35,103 nt of DNA from Desulfoscipio geothermicus DSM 3669. Its GTDB lineage: Bacteria; Bacillota; Desulfotomaculia; Desulfotomaculales; Desulfallaceae. The DNA is taken from assembly GCF_900115975.1 (NCBI RefSeq), contig NZ_FOYM01000036.1, positions 1 through 35,103 of the forward strand. Direction: 5' to 3'. Both the position numbers and the translations under genes were made by a program. Under the pieces are notes generated by a model that worked only from the letters and a program-made list of their open reading frames with translations, was not told the DNA's origin and did not search any database. Within the stretch, counting starts at the first letter, position 1. Every line of letters begins with the position of its first letter. Positions 742-26,980 of the stretch are shown here, piece by piece.

Positions 742-903
742 TAGAAACGCACCCTAAAAATACAATTTGCCCCACCAGCAGAGCAAATTACGAGGAGAGA
801 ATTTTTCTTGGCTCCAATACGTGAGCTTAGCTGTGAAATCCGTAATTGATATGCTTTTAATGTGAGATAATGACCTGAGCCTTAACTGGTCTCTTGTAAT
901 GGA

Positions 904-990
904 GAGCCAGATGCGGTGAAAATCGCACGCCCGGTTCGGGAAAGGGCATGGGAAAACCGGCTTAAGCCAGGTGTCCCATGCCTACTTCAC
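904..990 (+). mobile_element. Group II intron 3' end (domains V and VI), truncated
   Basis: Bases 904-937 form a classical 34-base domain V: GAGCC at the 5' end (containing the AGC triad) pairs with GGTTC at the 3' end, and the tip is GCGGT-GAAA-ATCGC with a GAAA tetraloop. Domain VI follows as a GGCATGGGA/TCCCATGCC stem, and the element ends in CCTACTTCAC (981-990), the same 3' end seen in bacterial group II introns such as Ll.LtrB, with the probable branch-point A in CTACTT. No reverse transcriptase and no recognisable domains I-III precede it within the window; 742-903 may hold residual domain IV sequence but shows no gene. This is a dead 3' remnant. Confidence 0.85.
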
Positions 991-10960: not shown

Positions 10961-11875
<915 letters not shown>

Positions 11876-11909
11876 TCTCAGGTAATAATAACTGGCAACT
11901 CCCCTTATA

Positions 11910-12218: not shown

Positions 12219-13673
12219 TCAATTGTCTTTGACCATAGATGTATTAGCCGTTTCCAACGTGTTCTTTGCATATTTATGAAGTTTACGTACCACCGTGGGC
12301 TGGCTCACCCCCAGAATACTGGCCGCCTTATATGTACTTCCATACATATCCACGGCATTTTTAATCAACTCAAATTCCAGTTCCGCAACAGCTTCTTTAA
12401 GTGTTTTGAAATTATTAGTTCCCTTTGCGCCGATATTTTTACAGATATAGGCAGGCAGATGTTTAGGAAGAATTAATTTATGTTCCACTGTAATCAACAG
12501 CCTTTCCACCAAGTTAACCAGTTCCCGGACATTTTCCGGCCATTCATAATCAACGAGCAACTCCATTGTTTTGACAGAAAAGCCCTTTTTAAGTTTATAC
12601 ATCTTGTTATAAACCCGAGTGTAATGCTGGATTAAAACCGGTATATCCTCCTTACGCTTGTGCAAAGGCGGTATAGGTATGGTAACTGTACTTAAACTGT
12701 CGTATAAATCCTTTTTAAACTTGCCTTTTCTTATCATTTTTTTAAGATCCTTATTTGATGACGCAATGATGCGAACATTTATATTGTTTTCAGGTTCTGT
12801 TACGCCTGTCCGGACTTTTTCCTGCATCCGGATTACCCCCAGCAATTTTTCCTGCAGGTCTGGAGGAAGATCCGCCACCTCTTTTATAAAAAGTGTTCCT
12901 TCATGGGCCATTTCCCAGAGGCCTTTTTCCCCTCTTGTGCCGTACTTCCGGGAATCAACCGGGTCATAACCAAACAGGATGGGTCTTAAAACTCCGGTAG
13001 GTATAGCCTGGCAATTAATTTTAATAAACGAACCGTTTTGCCTGCCCGACATGTGGATCTGTCTTGCTATGCTCTCCTTTCCCACTCCTGTCTTACCTAA
13101 AATCAGCACATTCGTTTTCACCTGCGAGACTTTGCAAGCGACATCCAAAACATTCTGCATCGCTTTACTTCTGGCCACTATTTGCTCTGCATTCACTTTC
13201 CGACACCTTAATGCGTCAATTTCCTTTTTATACCTTTCCGTCAACCGGCGGGCCAGTTCCAGTTTCGACCTCAGTTCATTTAACTCCGTCAGTTCCTGTA
13301 GATTTGTGACCACCCCCGATATATTCCCCTTATCATCAAAAATGGGAAGGCCTGATACTATAACCTGCTTACCGTTAGCGAAACTTTGCGTTAATGTTAA
13401 GGGCTCTTTTTGCTTTAATACCTCCAGGGCGGCGCTGCGGTCTATAAGCCCTTCCTCCACCAGTTCCCACATATTTTTCCCCATCACCAACCCGGATTTC
13501 AGGCCTGTTATCCTTTCAACGGCCCTATTCACTTTGATTGTTGTCCCTGTTACGTCAGTAATCCAAATACCGTCATGGGAGGATTCGATAACGGTGTCCA
13601 GTTCCCGTTTGATCTGTTGAATGCACCCAAGTTGCTGTGCCAGGGAAATAAACACTTTTAATAAATCCTGCAA
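12219..13673 (-). CDS. Sigma54-activator-like regulator with degenerate AAA+ domain
   Basis: The 484-residue protein has an N-terminal PAS domain (about residues 22-130: IESSHDGIWITDVTGTTIKV, ITGLKSGLVMGKNMWEL), a coiled linker (130-160), an AAA+ domain (165-395) and a C-terminal HTH (447-466, TYKAASILGVSQPTVVRKL). Walker A is intact (GKTGVGKE, 193-200). GAFTGA, which contacts sigma54, aligns with VDSRKY near 239. Walker B reads LFIKEV instead of LFLDEI. FREDLYYRL reads FKKDLYDSL, so both arginine-finger positions are changed. It probably binds nucleotide but cannot remodel sigma54 promoter complexes, so it may act as a TyrR-like DNA-binding regulator. The TTG start has a GGGGGG site. It lies between nifV and the nifH leader. 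Confidence 0.85.
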   Translation of the reverse strand: MQDLLKVFISLAQQLGCIQQIKRELDTVIESSHDGIWITDVTGTTIKVNRAVERITGLKSGLVMGKNMWELVEEGLIDRSAALEVLKQKEPLTLTQSFANGKQVIVSGLPIFDDKGNISGVVTNLQELTELNELRSKLELARRLTERYKKEIDALRCRKVNAEQIVARSKAMQNVLDVACKVSQVKTNVLILGKTGVGKESIARQIHMSGRQNGSFIKINCQAIPTGVLRPILFGYDPVDSRKYGTRGEKGLWEMAHEGTLFIKEVADLPPDLQEKLLGVIRMQEKVRTGVTEPENNINVRIIASSNKDLKKMIRKGKFKKDLYDSLSTVTIPIPPLHKRKEDIPVLIQHYTRVYNKMYKLKKGFSVKTMELLVDYEWPENVRELVNLVERLLITVEHKLILPKHLPAYICKNIGAKGTNNFKTLKEAVAELEFELIKNAVDMYGSTYKAASILGVSQPTVVRKLHKYAKNTLETANTSMVKDN

Positions 13674-13767: not shown

Positions 13768-13834
13768 ATAAAAAAGAGCCACTGGTTTTCTTCTTCCTGT
13801 AGCGGCCCCTTCGCCCTATGTCCAACGCTGGACA
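13768..13834 (-). promoter_or_regulatory. ANTAR-type antiterminator module before the regulator gene
   Basis: P1 is TGTCC[AGCGTT]GGACA (13819-13834), a stem sequence unlike the common GATAC/GTATC but with the same loop rule. P2 is GGC[GAAGGG]GCC (13804-13815). P2 overlaps the terminator arm GCCGCT, which pairs imperfectly with AGTGGC before TCTTTTTT. The different stem with conserved loop positions 1 and 4 argues for RNA-structure recognition rather than a DNA operator. Confidence 0.85.
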
Positions 13835-13905
13835 AATCGTGTTAAACGCCAAAAACTATAAATCAAATATCATATTACAATACATAAAATATTTTTTAAC
13901 CTTCA

Positions 13906-18357: not shown

Positions 18358-18433
18358 AAAATTAAAAACCCGCAAACAGATTTCGTTTAAACCTGTTTGC
18401 GGGCATCATTGCCTTTAATACAACGTTGTATTA
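18358..18433 (-). promoter_or_regulatory. ANTAR-type antiterminator module 1 of the glnA leader
   Basis: P1 is TAATAC[AACGTT]GTATTA (18416-18433) and P2 is GGC[AATGAT]GCC (18402-18413). P2 overlaps CCCGCAAACAG, the arm of a strong terminator CCCGCAAACAG/CTGTTTGCGGG with a TTTTTAATTTT tail (18364-18403). This is one of the cleanest copies. Confidence 0.92.
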
Positions 18434-18971: not shown

Positions 18972-19001
18972 TTGACAAAAAATAATAACTTGCAATATAA
19001 T
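18972..19001 (+). promoter_or_regulatory. SigmaA-like promoter of the chemoreceptor-like gene
   Basis: A perfect TTGACA (18972-18977) and a perfect TATAAT (18996-19001) are separated by 18 bases. The first antiterminator hairpin begins about 20 bases downstream. This is the strongest promoter in the window by consensus match. Confidence 0.82.
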
Positions 19002-19020
19002 TTGACCGAAACACCCAATA

Positions 19021-19088
19021 AATACACTGGTGTATCAATAAAGCAAAGAAGCTGTCTGATACCGTTTTTCAGACAGCTTTGTTTTTTT
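19021..19088 (+). promoter_or_regulatory. ANTAR-type antiterminator module before the chemoreceptor-like gene
   Basis: P1 is AATAC[ACTGGT]GTATC (19021-19036; the outermost pair is A-C, so four pairs form) and P2 is AGC[AAAGAA]GCT (19042-19053). P2 overlaps the terminator AGCTGTCTGA/TCAGACAGCT followed by TTGTTTTTTT (19050-19088). It is the only module on the plus strand. Confidence 0.9.
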
Positions 19089-19115
19089 ATTTTGCATTTA
19101 GAAGGTGATTCTTTC

Positions 19116-20501
19116 ATGGCAATGGCAGAAATAATTTACGGCGCAATCCTATCCGTAGCGGTAGGCTATTTTACTTATCGCTTTGTTAAAAACAGATTCT
19201 TTTATTACATGAATAACCTAAATAAAGAAATATCCGACTGGCAACAGGTTACATTACCTCCTACCGAGCGAAGCGAATCAACGAGAATTTTTCCCATTGG
19301 CGACAAAGTCTTTGAATTAATAAACAAAGCCAGAATTTTGACCCAGGAGATACATCTAACCTCCCAGCAAGTGCGAGCCGCCTCCAACCAGGTGGAAGCA
19401 TCAGCCCGTTCAGCCATGGACATTGATACGGCCATTGACCGTATGCAAAACACAGCTGCCGGAATGCAACAGACCAGTATAGCATTGGAACAGGACTTTG
19501 ATGCCAGTCAATCAGCTACACAGGAAATAGACACCGCCATAAAACAAATCCAAGATTCGGTCAGTAAAATATCCGACAACACCAACACATTAAAAAACCA
19601 AACCACCACATTACAAACCGCTGTTGATCAAGTAAAGTTAATTGCGCAAAACATCAATGAAATTTCCGATCAAACCAAGCTATTGGCCTTAAACGCCGCC
19701 ATTGAGGCAGCCCGGGCCGGGGAACACGGCAAAGGGTTCACGGTGGTAGCCGAGGAAATCGGCAAATTGTCCGATCGCACCGCCGCCGCGGTGCAGCAGG
19801 CTTTTGGCATATTGGAAGACATGAAAGGCAACGTTGGCATGGTGATTAACAATATAACGGAAAGTATTAATTCTTCCAGTACAGCCACCGGACAAGTGAA
19901 ACATATCGAAACTGTATTAACCCACAGCTTCGATTTAATTCAACGAGCAAACAACACCGCCCGGGAGACCTTTTACGAGGTTAACGGCAGCCTGCAGCAA
20001 ATGGCTGCCACATTACAGTCCTGTCGCAAAGAACTGGAACCAATTATCCATACGGGCACACTTATGCAAAGCCTGTCCGATAAATTGGAGCAAACCGCAA
20101 AGCAAAACCGGATTCATTACGTGCTGGAAGCCCAGGTTACATCACAGGTGGAAACTATAAAATCTTTATTGGCCCGGGCCTCCGAAAAAGACTGCATTGC
20201 CACTCTTGATACCGCCCAGCATAAGGAAACACTGACACGGTTAAAAAAGGAAAACCCCGGCATTGAGGCCATTTGGTCCAACGATGCAACGGGCCATTTT
20301 TTGTACTCCGAGCCACCTGCCGCCCTGGCTAACGGCAAAGTGCGGGAATGGTGGCAAAGGGCCGTTGCAGGTGAAATATTTGTTTCTCCCGTTTACATAT
20401 CCGCCATCACCAGACAGCCCTGCCTGACAGTATCAGTCCCCATTATTCGTGACGGCATAGTATGCGGTGTTTTGGGCGCCGATTTAAGAGCTTTAAACTA
20501 A
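19116..20501 (+). CDS. Methyl-accepting-chemotaxis-type receptor with C-terminal Cache-like sensor
   Basis: The 461-residue protein has one N-terminal membrane helix (about residues 5-24), a long coiled coil with the MCP signalling tip ([17 protein letters not shown], 192-208, followed by [13 protein letters not shown]) and, after the signalling hairpin, a C-terminal domain (about 345-461) resembling a PDC/Cache fold: [57 protein letters not shown]. With one membrane helix the sensor would be cytoplasmic. The order membrane-signalling-sensor is the reverse of classical receptors. The start at 19116 has GAAGGTGATT upstream. It is led by a promoter and an antiterminator module shared with the nitrogen genes, so its signal is probably linked to nitrogen status (inference). 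Confidence 0.88.
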
Positions 20502-23734: not shown

Positions 23735-23803
23735 AACAAAACAAGGGCGCCCGCGGTTTCAACCGCCGTGAGCACCCTTGCCCTGTACCCCAACCCTGGG
23801 ATA
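23735..23803 (-). promoter_or_regulatory. ANTAR-type antiterminator module before amtB-2
   Basis: P1 is TATCCC[AGGGTT]GGGGTA (23786-23803), a six-pair stem with one G-U, and P2 is GGGC[AAGGGT]GCTC (23770-23783). P2 overlaps the terminator AAGGGTGCTC...GGGCGCCCTT with a UGUUUUGUUUUUU tail (23735-23779). It starts just after the stop codon of the preceding P-II gene. Confidence 0.87.
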
Positions 23804-24285: not shown

Positions 24286-24303
24286 GTAGTTTCCATATTG
24301 TGA

Positions 24304-24366
24304 AAAAGGGGACAGGCTGCTTTTTCTGGTTATAAATACCAGAAAACGTGGCCTGTCCCCTTTTTC
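24304..24366. terminator. GGGGACAGG palindrome, likely adhE terminator
   Basis: AAAAAGGGGACAGGC pairs with GCCTGTCCCCTTTTT around an inner CTGGT/ACCAG stem, giving a long hairpin with U-runs in both directions. It lies eight bases after the adhE stop and faces the P-II-2 promoter. Its GGGGACAGG core is shared with 31983-32087 and the nif spacer repeats. Confidence 0.8.
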
Positions 24367-24373
24367 CTTTTGG

Positions 24374-26980
24374 CTAGGCATGGGGGTTATCGTACGCTCT
24401 TATCAATATGTCCGCCAACTCGCTGATCAGGGGCATGCGGGGGTTGGCCGTGGTGGCCTGGTCCACAAAAGCCTTTTCGGCCAGTTCCGGCACCTTTTGT
24501 TTGAATATAGCCGCATCCACCCCGCATTCCGCGATGGTGGCCGGAACGCCTACATCAGCCCGTAATCTTTCCACCGCCGCTATCAAATTGTTGACCCCCT
24601 CTTCCACCGTTGCCGCCGGCAGACCCAGAAACGCCGCCATCTGCCGGTATTTTTCCGGTGCCTCGAAGTATTCGTACTGCGGGAAAGCGGCAAACTTGCT
24701 GGGCAGGCCGGCATTGTACCGAATCACGTGGGGCAACAGGATGGCGTTGGCCCGGCCGTGCGGAATGTGAAACTCGCCGCCCAACTTGTGGGCCAGGCTG
24801 TGGCAAACCCCCAAAAAAGCGTTGGTAAAAGCCATGCCGGCAATACAGGAAGCGTTATGCATTTTGCTGCGGGCTTCATAGTTATCCTGCCCCCCGTAAC
24901 TTTCAGGCAGGTACTTGAATACCAGTTCCGTGGCTTTTTGCGACATGGCGTCCGTGTAATCCGAAGCCATCACCGAAACATATGCTTCCAGGGCGTGGGT
25001 TAAAACATCCAATCCGGTGTCCGCCGTTACTTTCGGCGGCAGGGTGCTGACAAAATCGGGGTCAATAATGGCCACGTCGGGCGTCAGTTCGTAGTCGGCC
25101 AGGGGATACTTAACGTCCTCGCCCCTGTGGGTGATCACCGCAAAGGCGCTGACCTCCGACCCCGTACCGCTGGTGGTGGGAATGGCCACCAGTTGGGCCT
25201 GCCGCCCCAGTTTGGGGTATTTGTAGGTGCGTTTGCGGATATCCAGAAACTTCAGGCGCAGGAAATCAAATTCCACTTCCGGGTGTTCATAAAACAACCA
25301 CATGGCCTTGGCGGCATCTATGGGCGACCCCCCGCCCAGGGCGATAATGGTATCCGGGCGAAACTGCTTCATCACTTCAACGCCCTTTTGCACCGTTTCC
25401 ACCGAGGGATCGGGTTCCACTTCGGAAAATATTTCAATGTTCACCGGGTTATTGCGCTTATTTAAATGATAAATCACCTTGTCCACAAAGCCCAGCTTGA
25501 CAATCCCCGGGTCCGTAACAATCAGCGCCCGCTCCACGCCCTGTATTTTTTGCAGGTACTGGATGGACCCGGGGGCGAAGTAAATGCGCTCCGGCACCCG
25601 AAACCACTGCAGTTTTTCCCGTCGGCCGGTCACCCGCTTAATATTGATCAGGTTGTCCACGCTGACGTTGGAAGTGGTGGCGTTATGTCCCATGGAGCCG
25701 CACCCCAGGGTCAGCGAAGGCACGTTTACATTGTAGAGATCCCCGATAGCCCCGTGGGTGGCCGGTGCGTTGATGATTATGCGGCCGGCCCGCATCCGCC
25801 GGGAGAACAGGGCCACTACCTCTTTATCCTCCGAATGCAATACTGCGGAGTGCCCCAGGCCGCCAAAGCCGATCACCTCTTCACAAAGATTGATCCCCTC
25901 ATGGTAATCGGCCACCTGGTAACAGGCCAGAATGGGGCTTAGTTTTTCCATGGACAGGGGGTGCTGGGGACCGACGCCCTGCTGGGGCGCCACCAGCACC
26001 TTGGTATCCTTCGGCACTTCAAAGCCCGCCATTCGGGCAATCTCATAGGCGGGCCGGCCCACAACAGCCGGATTCAGGCTGCAGTCCCCCCCCTTGACCG
26101 CCATGGACTCCAGTTTGGCCGTTTCTTCCTCATTCAAGAAATAACAGCCGTATTCCCGCATCAGCCCGGTAGCTTCCCGGTAAATATCCCGGTCAATGAT
26201 CACGGACTGCTCCGAGGCGCAGATCATGCCGTTGTCGAAGGTCTTGCTTAAAATAAGGTCGGTTACCGCTCGCTTAATTTTAGCCGTTTTTTCAATATAA
26301 CAGGGTACGTTGCCCGGCCCCACTCCCAGGGCGGGTTTGCCCGTGCTGTATGCAGCCCGCACCAGACCGGCGCCCCCCGTGGCCAGGATCAGATGCACCC
26401 CATCGTTGTGCATTAAATAACGGGTGGCCTCAATGGTTGATTCCTCGATCCAGCCAATGCAATCCTCCGGCGCCCCGGCGGCCACCGCCGCTTCCAGCAT
26501 CACCCGGGCGGCCGCGGCGCTGCATTTTTGCGCCCCCGGGTGGAAGCTAAAGATCACCGGGTTGGCCGTTTTCAGGCAGATCAACGCTTTGAACATGGTG
26601 GTGGATGTGGGGTTGGTAACGGGTACTATGGCGGCGATCACCCCCACGGGCTCGGCCACCTCCATGAGGTCCTCCTCCTCATCCACCCTGATCACGCCCA
26701 CGGTTTTCTTGTACTTGATGCTGTGGTACACCGATTCCGTGGCAAATATGTTCTTAATCATCTTATCTTCGTATACGCCCCGCCCGGTTTCCTCCACCGC
26801 CATCCGGGCCAGTTCCATGTGCTTGTCCAGACCGGCCAGGGCCATGGCCCGGACCACCTTGTCAATTTCCTCCTGCGACAGGCGCTGCAGCGCTACGCGC
26901 GCCCTTTCTGCTTTCTCCACCAGGCGGTCCACCATCAACTTGCGCTCGTCGCCTATATACTCCAGTTTCTGCTCGGTCAC
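24374..26980 (-). CDS. adhE: Bifunctional acetaldehyde-CoA/alcohol dehydrogenase AdhE
   Basis: AdhE reduces acetyl-CoA to acetaldehyde and then ethanol with NADH, or runs in reverse for ethanol use. The 868-residue protein has an N-terminal CoA-acylating aldehyde dehydrogenase domain (about 1-445: [20 protein letters not shown], and the catalytic cysteine in [11 protein letters not shown]), a linker and a C-terminal iron alcohol dehydrogenase domain (about 460-868: [33 protein letters not shown], and metal ligands in [10 protein letters not shown] and [17 protein letters not shown]). Full length. It follows the BON-domain gene by 18 bases, likely as one operon. No antiterminator module is seen before it, so it seems outside the nitrogen regulon. 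Confidence 0.96.

Follow-up and report, generated by a model that had tools for sequence, protein, structure and literature searches.

What is a chemoreceptor-like gene doing among the nitrogen genes of Desulfoscipio geothermicus DSM 3669, and what does its product sense? The gene (19116-20501, plus strand) lies on a stretch of 35,103 nucleotides of contig NZ_FOYM01000036.1, hereafter the window, and encodes a protein of 461 residues, recognized by Pfam and by its relatives, from an ATG start preceded by the ribosome site agaaggtga. We read it, with belief and doubt about equally balanced, as a chemoreceptor tethered to the membrane and facing inwards, which reports the nitrogen status of the cell interior, is co-expressed with nitrogen genes, carries a carboxylate-binding Cache domain and acts through CheA. 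The architecture and the regulatory sequence are well supported; the ligand and the output are predictions. An earlier note on this DNA had placed the locus at 18972-20501: the end is correct, but 18972 is the first base of the promoter and not the start codon. A 509-residue open reading frame that opens with a TTG at 18972 was rejected as the gene, since it spans promoter and leader.

The protein begins with a single membrane helix (residues ~5-26; 19128-19193, plus strand), found in the sequence and by a hydropathy scan and lying within helix 2-44 of the structural model, which is followed by the hairpin of methyl-accepting chemotaxis proteins (MCP; residues 60-329, tip ~184-214; 19293-20102, plus strand) and by a C-terminal single Cache/PDC domain (residues 339-458; 20130-20489, plus strand). 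The AlphaFold model, based on an alignment of 76 relatives, shows helices 2-44, 60-200 and 202-329 and then an alpha/beta domain at 339-458 with a predicted local distance difference test score (pLDDT) of ~95; helices 60-200 and 202-329 form the hairpin, with roughly 20 heptads per arm. Pfam identifies MCPsignal at residues 160-306 (E 1e-24), Foldseek matches the hairpin to Tsr and to Thermotoga maritima receptors, and N193, A194, I196, E197, G202, G205 and F208 are invariant in the 76 aligned sequences. C-terminal to MCPsignal there is a dCache_1-type match at 363-458 (E 2e-9) which covers one lobe only, namely positions 44-151 of the 240 in the profile, and its 37.7 bits stay below the cut-off of 45 for dCache_1 (PF02743).

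Cache domains are usually, though not absolutely, extracytoplasmic and placed between two membrane helices, whereas here the domain is C-terminal. A single helix followed by a basic segment predicts that the C-terminus is inside the cell. The N-termini of the relatives have one helix, two with almost no loop between them or, in most Paenibacillaceae, none; since no such topology leaves room for a periplasmic domain, the Cache domain is predicted to be cytosolic throughout the family. The order of the Pfam domains, the model and these topologies thus agree with the earlier proposal of a sensor that follows the hairpin and is held inside the cell by one N-terminal helix.

The fold itself was one point on which the earlier note could have failed, as it had called for a structure prediction of residues 340-461 and for Cache similarity in the result. 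In fact, the domain consists of a long N-terminal helix and a PAS-like alpha/beta core with the Cache/PDC fold, as shown by AlphaFold, fold comparison and alignment, and was also predicted on its own with a pLDDT of 93.8 and a predicted template modelling score of 0.86. The closest solved fold is the membrane-distal lobe of the sporulation kinase KinD (Z 18.2, 1.7 Å over 125 residues). Amino-acid receptors are also matched, PctB with L-Gln at Z 14.7 and CtaA with amino acids at Z about 15, and the fold search and Foldseek further returned McpA of Bacillus velezensis, PctA and Tlp3.

In PctA numbering, the dCache_1AA motif is Y121/R126/W128/Y129/Y144/D173, and alignment to solved sensors places R410, W412, W413, Y427 and D456 on R126, W128, Y129, Y144 and D173. 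Five of the six positions are therefore kept, Y129 as Trp or Phe, and the full six-residue motif is not present. We consider R410, W412, W413, Y427, C436, T438 and D456 as candidate pocket residues. As relatives were collected with the pattern [VIP]Y[IV]SAIT, the large alignments are bound to show Y427, S429, A430, I431 and T432 as invariant, these positions lying within the pattern; Y427 is, however, also invariant in a sequence set gathered independently of it. The pocket argument rests on R410, W412, S398, P400, C436 and D456, which lie outside the pattern, and R410, W412, C436 and D456 are invariant in the 76 sequences. These residues point to a small cytosolic carboxylate as the predicted ligand, with the aspartate favouring an alpha-amino acid over a keto acid, and the domain is probably amino-acid-sensing, for instance for glutamine or glutamate.

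The regulatory sequence ties the gene to nitrogen. A predicted sigma-70/A type promoter, TTGACA-18-TATAAT (18972-19001, plus strand), matches the consensus at 12 of 12 positions, and no other site on either strand of the window reaches 11, in line with the earlier view that the strongest promoter stands ahead of the receptor gene. It is separated from the ATG by a leader of ~110 bases, which contains a dual-hexaloop ANTAR target (19020-19055, plus strand) composed of P1 (ATAC-ACTGGT-GTAT, 19022-19035) and P2 (AGC-AAAGAA-GCT, 19042-19053), both loops having A as their first and G as their fourth base, and an intrinsic terminator (19048-19089, plus strand; 12-bp stem and T tract, fold z -5.15). 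The terminator stem, at 19048-19080 and followed by the T tract, includes the 3' arm of P2, so that the folds of P2 and terminator are mutually exclusive. A dual-hexaloop target overlapping a terminator is the layout shown for ANTAR antitermination (PMC3369931), and the receptor leader is predicted to be controlled by an ANTAR protein in this manner.

A simple search for modules by their terminators overlooked several leaders in which the P2 stem is weak, and we therefore used a covariance model, built only from modules of non-receptor genes and leaving out the receptor leader. That leader was nevertheless the sixth-best match in the 3.65-Mb genome (E = 0.0011), and the remaining top matches all precede nitrogen genes, namely the ANTAR regulator/glnA operon, two further glnA, two amtB and nifH. 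Both the clean antiterminator module and the shared control with glnA, amtB and nif, which had been proposed from the letters, are thereby supported. Rfam scans of the leader returned no ANTAR family, only sub-threshold chance matches. Within the window, further targets of the regulon lie on the minus strand in the leaders of glnA (18400-18433) and nifH (11844-11877), detected by pattern search and covariance model, and between the P-II gene and amtB (23769-23803), detected by the covariance model. The pattern search, run separately over the genome, gave seven target matches, at least one of which is probably due to chance, versus none in a reversed control.

The same link is seen in relatives, which occur in 20 of 60 sampled genomes of the order Desulfotomaculales. 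A scan of one genome per species gave 80 loci, from Desulfotomaculales, Moorella, other Clostridia and many Paenibacillus and Cohnella; the family thus spans clostridial-type bacteria and Paenibacillaceae. Counting covariance-model matches with E < 0.1 in a 0.6-Mb search, an ANTAR leader precedes 8 of the 20 orthologues of the order versus none of 40 other MCP genes of the same genomes (p 5e-5). The co-occurrence of ANTAR genes was set aside as uninformative, as they are present in 56 of the 60 relatives. In Paenibacillaceae, nitrogen genes are controlled by GlnR (PMC9948412), and we identified a perfect GlnR box, TGTNAN7TNACA, at most 200 bases upstream of 13 of 48 receptor genes versus 25 of 611 other genes of the same loci (p 4e-7), with amtB or its divergent neighbour accounting for many of the 25. 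In many of these receptor genes, box and -10 hexamer overlap (TATAATGTTA...), as would be expected for repression under nitrogen excess. Two unrelated regulators, acting through ANTAR leaders and GlnR boxes, thus appear to place the receptor gene in the nitrogen regulon.

Gene neighbourhood points in the same direction: of 42 clostridial-type loci, 15 have nitrogen genes at a distance of at most 10 kb, as have 27 of 48 loci from Paenibacillaceae, versus 5 of 40 control MCP loci, with p values of 0.02 and 2e-5 that ignore shared ancestry. The 27 are not independent events, because the Paenibacillaceae have for the most part inherited a single gene order here, with amtB convergent to the receptor gene in most Paenibacillus and Cohnella loci. 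Examples are the ends of nif clusters (L059, L061, L035), glnK-amtB (L037, L107) and glnK-ANTAR-glnA (L048). These neighbours and the GlnR boxes strengthen the suggested connection with the nitrogen status of the cell interior. Paenibacillus and Cohnella have, between receptor gene and amtB, a conserved gene of ~120-135 codons (L050:10515-10898, L068:10407-10763), and the one product scanned had no Pfam match.

As to output, the genome contains several CheW genes and one CheA gene, which lies within the flagellar cluster; the hairpin tip of the D. geothermicus receptor is canonical, and CheA is present in 18 of 18 family-carrying genomes versus 168 of 199 overall in the phylum sample (p 0.04). 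Together, canonical tip, single flagellar-cluster CheA and co-occurrence favour control of CheA and the flagella, with a second branch through cyclic di-GMP (c-di-GMP) where an EAL partner exists.

Acting through these components, the receptor would work as follows. Under nitrogen shortage, an ANTAR regulator would bind the leader and prevent termination, so that the receptor would be made alongside the genes for ammonium uptake, assimilation and nitrogen fixation. The ligand of the Cache domain would be a small carboxylate of the cytosol, for which an alpha-amino acid, for example glutamine or glutamate, is the likeliest candidate. The long helix at the start of the domain would relay its occupancy to the hairpin base and, via CheW, to the activity of the single CheA. 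CheA would then bias flagellar swimming, and cells starved of nitrogen would go on swimming towards conditions under which the pool is replenished. In some relatives, the adjacent EAL-Cache protein would probably read a related cue and lower c-di-GMP in parallel, also favouring motility.

Several observations weigh against this reading. The co-occurrence with CheA is statistically weak, and one family-carrying genome, of 92% completeness, gave no CheA match. The tip Arg, a residue that matters for CheA/CheW coupling in Escherichia coli, is His in 37 of the 76 aligned receptors, nearly all from Paenibacillaceae. A methylation-site scan gave three relaxed matches and no strict consensus match, so adaptation may be absent. 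No ANTAR leader can be recognised for seven of the order's 20 orthologues, the motif position of PctA Y121 is occupied by L404 and, finally, KinD was crystallised with pyruvate, which makes a keto acid ligand possible.

That last point leads to the best-surviving alternative, in which the Cache domain senses not an amino acid but a carbon skeleton, such as 2-oxoglutarate or pyruvate, and hence the starvation side of the nitrogen balance. Besides the pyruvate of its closest fold, such a ligand would suit the alignment of R410 with R131 of KinD, where a carboxylate is expected, and the similarity to the sensors DctB (C4 acids) and CitA (citrate), both at Z about 16; with the aspartate of the pocket favouring an amino acid, we consider it doubtful but worth keeping in view.

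An alternative for the output arises from the neighbours. In nine loci, one a fragment and one convergent, the adjacent gene, mostly on the same strand and close, encodes an EAL protein, usually of ~410 residues, and the C-termini of these partners are profile-related to the receptor Cache domain (probability 92, p 7.5e-7), one having a C-terminal Pfam YkuI_C domain. Full-length partners are present in 7 of 42 loci versus none of 40 control MCP loci, and the EAL gene of P. koleovorans (L102) is itself preceded by a perfect GlnR box. The hairpin might therefore scaffold or control a neighbouring EAL-Cache phosphodiesterase, with c-di-GMP turnover instead of CheA as the main output and nitrogen status setting the choice between motility and biofilm. 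We regard this as unlikely, since most orthologues, including the D. geothermicus receptor, have no adjacent EAL gene, the hairpin tip retains the residues for CheA/CheW coupling and the family tracks CheA. Genes for EAL-domain proteins with a C-terminal Cache/YkuI_C-like region adjoin the receptor gene in several unrelated genomes (L045:3829-5064, L037:4508-5752, L107:3777-5006, L049:10445-11689 and L078:1174-2556).

Finally, the earlier idea that the receptor drives a kinase which phosphorylates the ANTAR regulator and closes a feedback loop is very improbable: an ANTAR regulator is encoded a few genes from the receptor in some genomes (L025, L027/L048, L030, L044, L072), but the two nitrogen-type regulators of D. 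geothermicus (contig C55, beside glnA and glutamate synthase genes) are not neighboured by any histidine kinase, the acidic pair of an active receiver is absent from one and reduced to one residue in the other, the sole ANTAR regulator that does have a kinase close to it is found next to eut genes, the only CheA belongs to the flagellar cluster, and in Paenibacillaceae the family is retained with GlnR boxes in place of ANTAR leaders. The receiver without the acidic pair suggests that its regulator is controlled other than by phosphorylation. The EAL partner, the amino-acid-type pocket and the spread of the family to Paenibacillaceae had not been anticipated in the earlier note.

Some further features were noted. 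The genome encodes three ANTAR proteins; the response regulator genes of this type in the glnA/glutamate synthase cluster, with no neighbouring kinase, lie at L134:13008-13592 and L134:8161-8787, both on the minus strand. A weaker ANTAR-target match (13802-13835, minus strand; E 0.025 in 0.6 Mb) is found upstream of the PAS/sigma-54 activator gene of the window (12219-13673), and in the genome-wide search a weaker pair of tandem matches (G000:C40:141323-141462) precedes a paralogue of this activator (L136:7828-9264, minus strand). The receptor gene is split in two frames in L032/L049 (BRH_c8a) and L047 (Desulforamulus aquiferis), one of them beside a nif cluster, which suggests a sequencing error or that the gene was lost recently. 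In the left part of the window, a group II intron (domain V/VI) match is above the Rfam gathering score (902-990, plus strand), and an inverted repeat between the P-II gene and an adhE-like gene (24291-24375), with microRNA-family scores below cut-off on both strands, is probably a long terminator-like hairpin.

Among the extracellular sensors of bacteria, Cache domains are considered to predominate, and a conserved chemoreceptor family with an internal one would demonstrate that this pocket is also able to monitor the metabolite pool. It is possible, if somewhat on the doubtful side of even, that the family is an undescribed class of chemoreceptor, whose cytosolic C-terminal Cache domain has a free amino acid, glutamine or glutamate, as its ligand, through which swimming and, in some species, c-di-GMP follow internal nitrogen, and which was recruited separately into the ANTAR regulons of clostridial-type bacteria and the GlnR regulons of Paenibacillaceae. 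Full-text literature searches, of partial coverage and thus weak evidence, returned no description of a chemoreceptor with a C-terminal cytosolic Cache domain. Should glutamine prove to be the ligand, the protein would represent a new type of cytosolic glutamine receptor; one gene whose pocket is predicted (R410, W412, Y427, D456) and whose promoter and leader are defined offers a handle on how nitrogen limitation may be linked with motility or the choice of biofilm in Gram-positive diazotrophs.

Among known systems, the Desulfotomaculum ANTAR nitrogen regulons share the dual-hexaloop targets overlapping terminators before nitrogen genes (Ramesh et al., 2012; PMC3369931). The legend of Fig. 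S3 in that study names one MCP gene as a putative target, the text giving no analysis of its architecture or function. The example shown there overlaps the ribosome site, whereas the target described here overlaps a terminator. The dCache_1AA chemoreceptors PctA, PctB, CtaA and Tlp3 share the fold and five of the six motif positions; however, they have a double Cache, N-terminal and outside the membrane, instead of one lobe, C-terminal and inside, and the present receptor differs from them by the Leu at the Y121 position and by an extra invariant Cys436. The membrane-distal lobe of KinD shares with it the pocket Arg and an S-x-x-Y-x-S-x-I-T pattern, but belongs to an extracellular sensor on a histidine kinase and has no counterpart of the Asp of the amino-acid motif. 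In Helicobacter pylori TlpD and other MCP-CZB receptors, the sensor is likewise intracellular and C-terminal to the hairpin, and the CZB family also controls c-di-GMP enzymes (PMC12871147, PMC13001251); CZB is, however, a zinc-binding helical bundle, while the receptor described here has an alpha/beta Cache domain, a membrane helix and nitrogen control. Among Cache domains, YkuI_C and Diacid_rec are exceptions in being cytosolic, and a 2016 Cache census counted no MCP with YkuI_C (PMC4822843). Bacillus subtilis YkuI (EAL and YkuI_C) also has a cytosolic C-terminal sensor of the Cache superfamily, YkuI_C-like domains being profile-related to the one described here, but its output is an EAL domain instead of an MCP hairpin (PMC4822843). 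The receptors form a conserved family with an inward-facing Cache domain under nitrogen control, to be set beside MCP-CZB receptors and YkuI.
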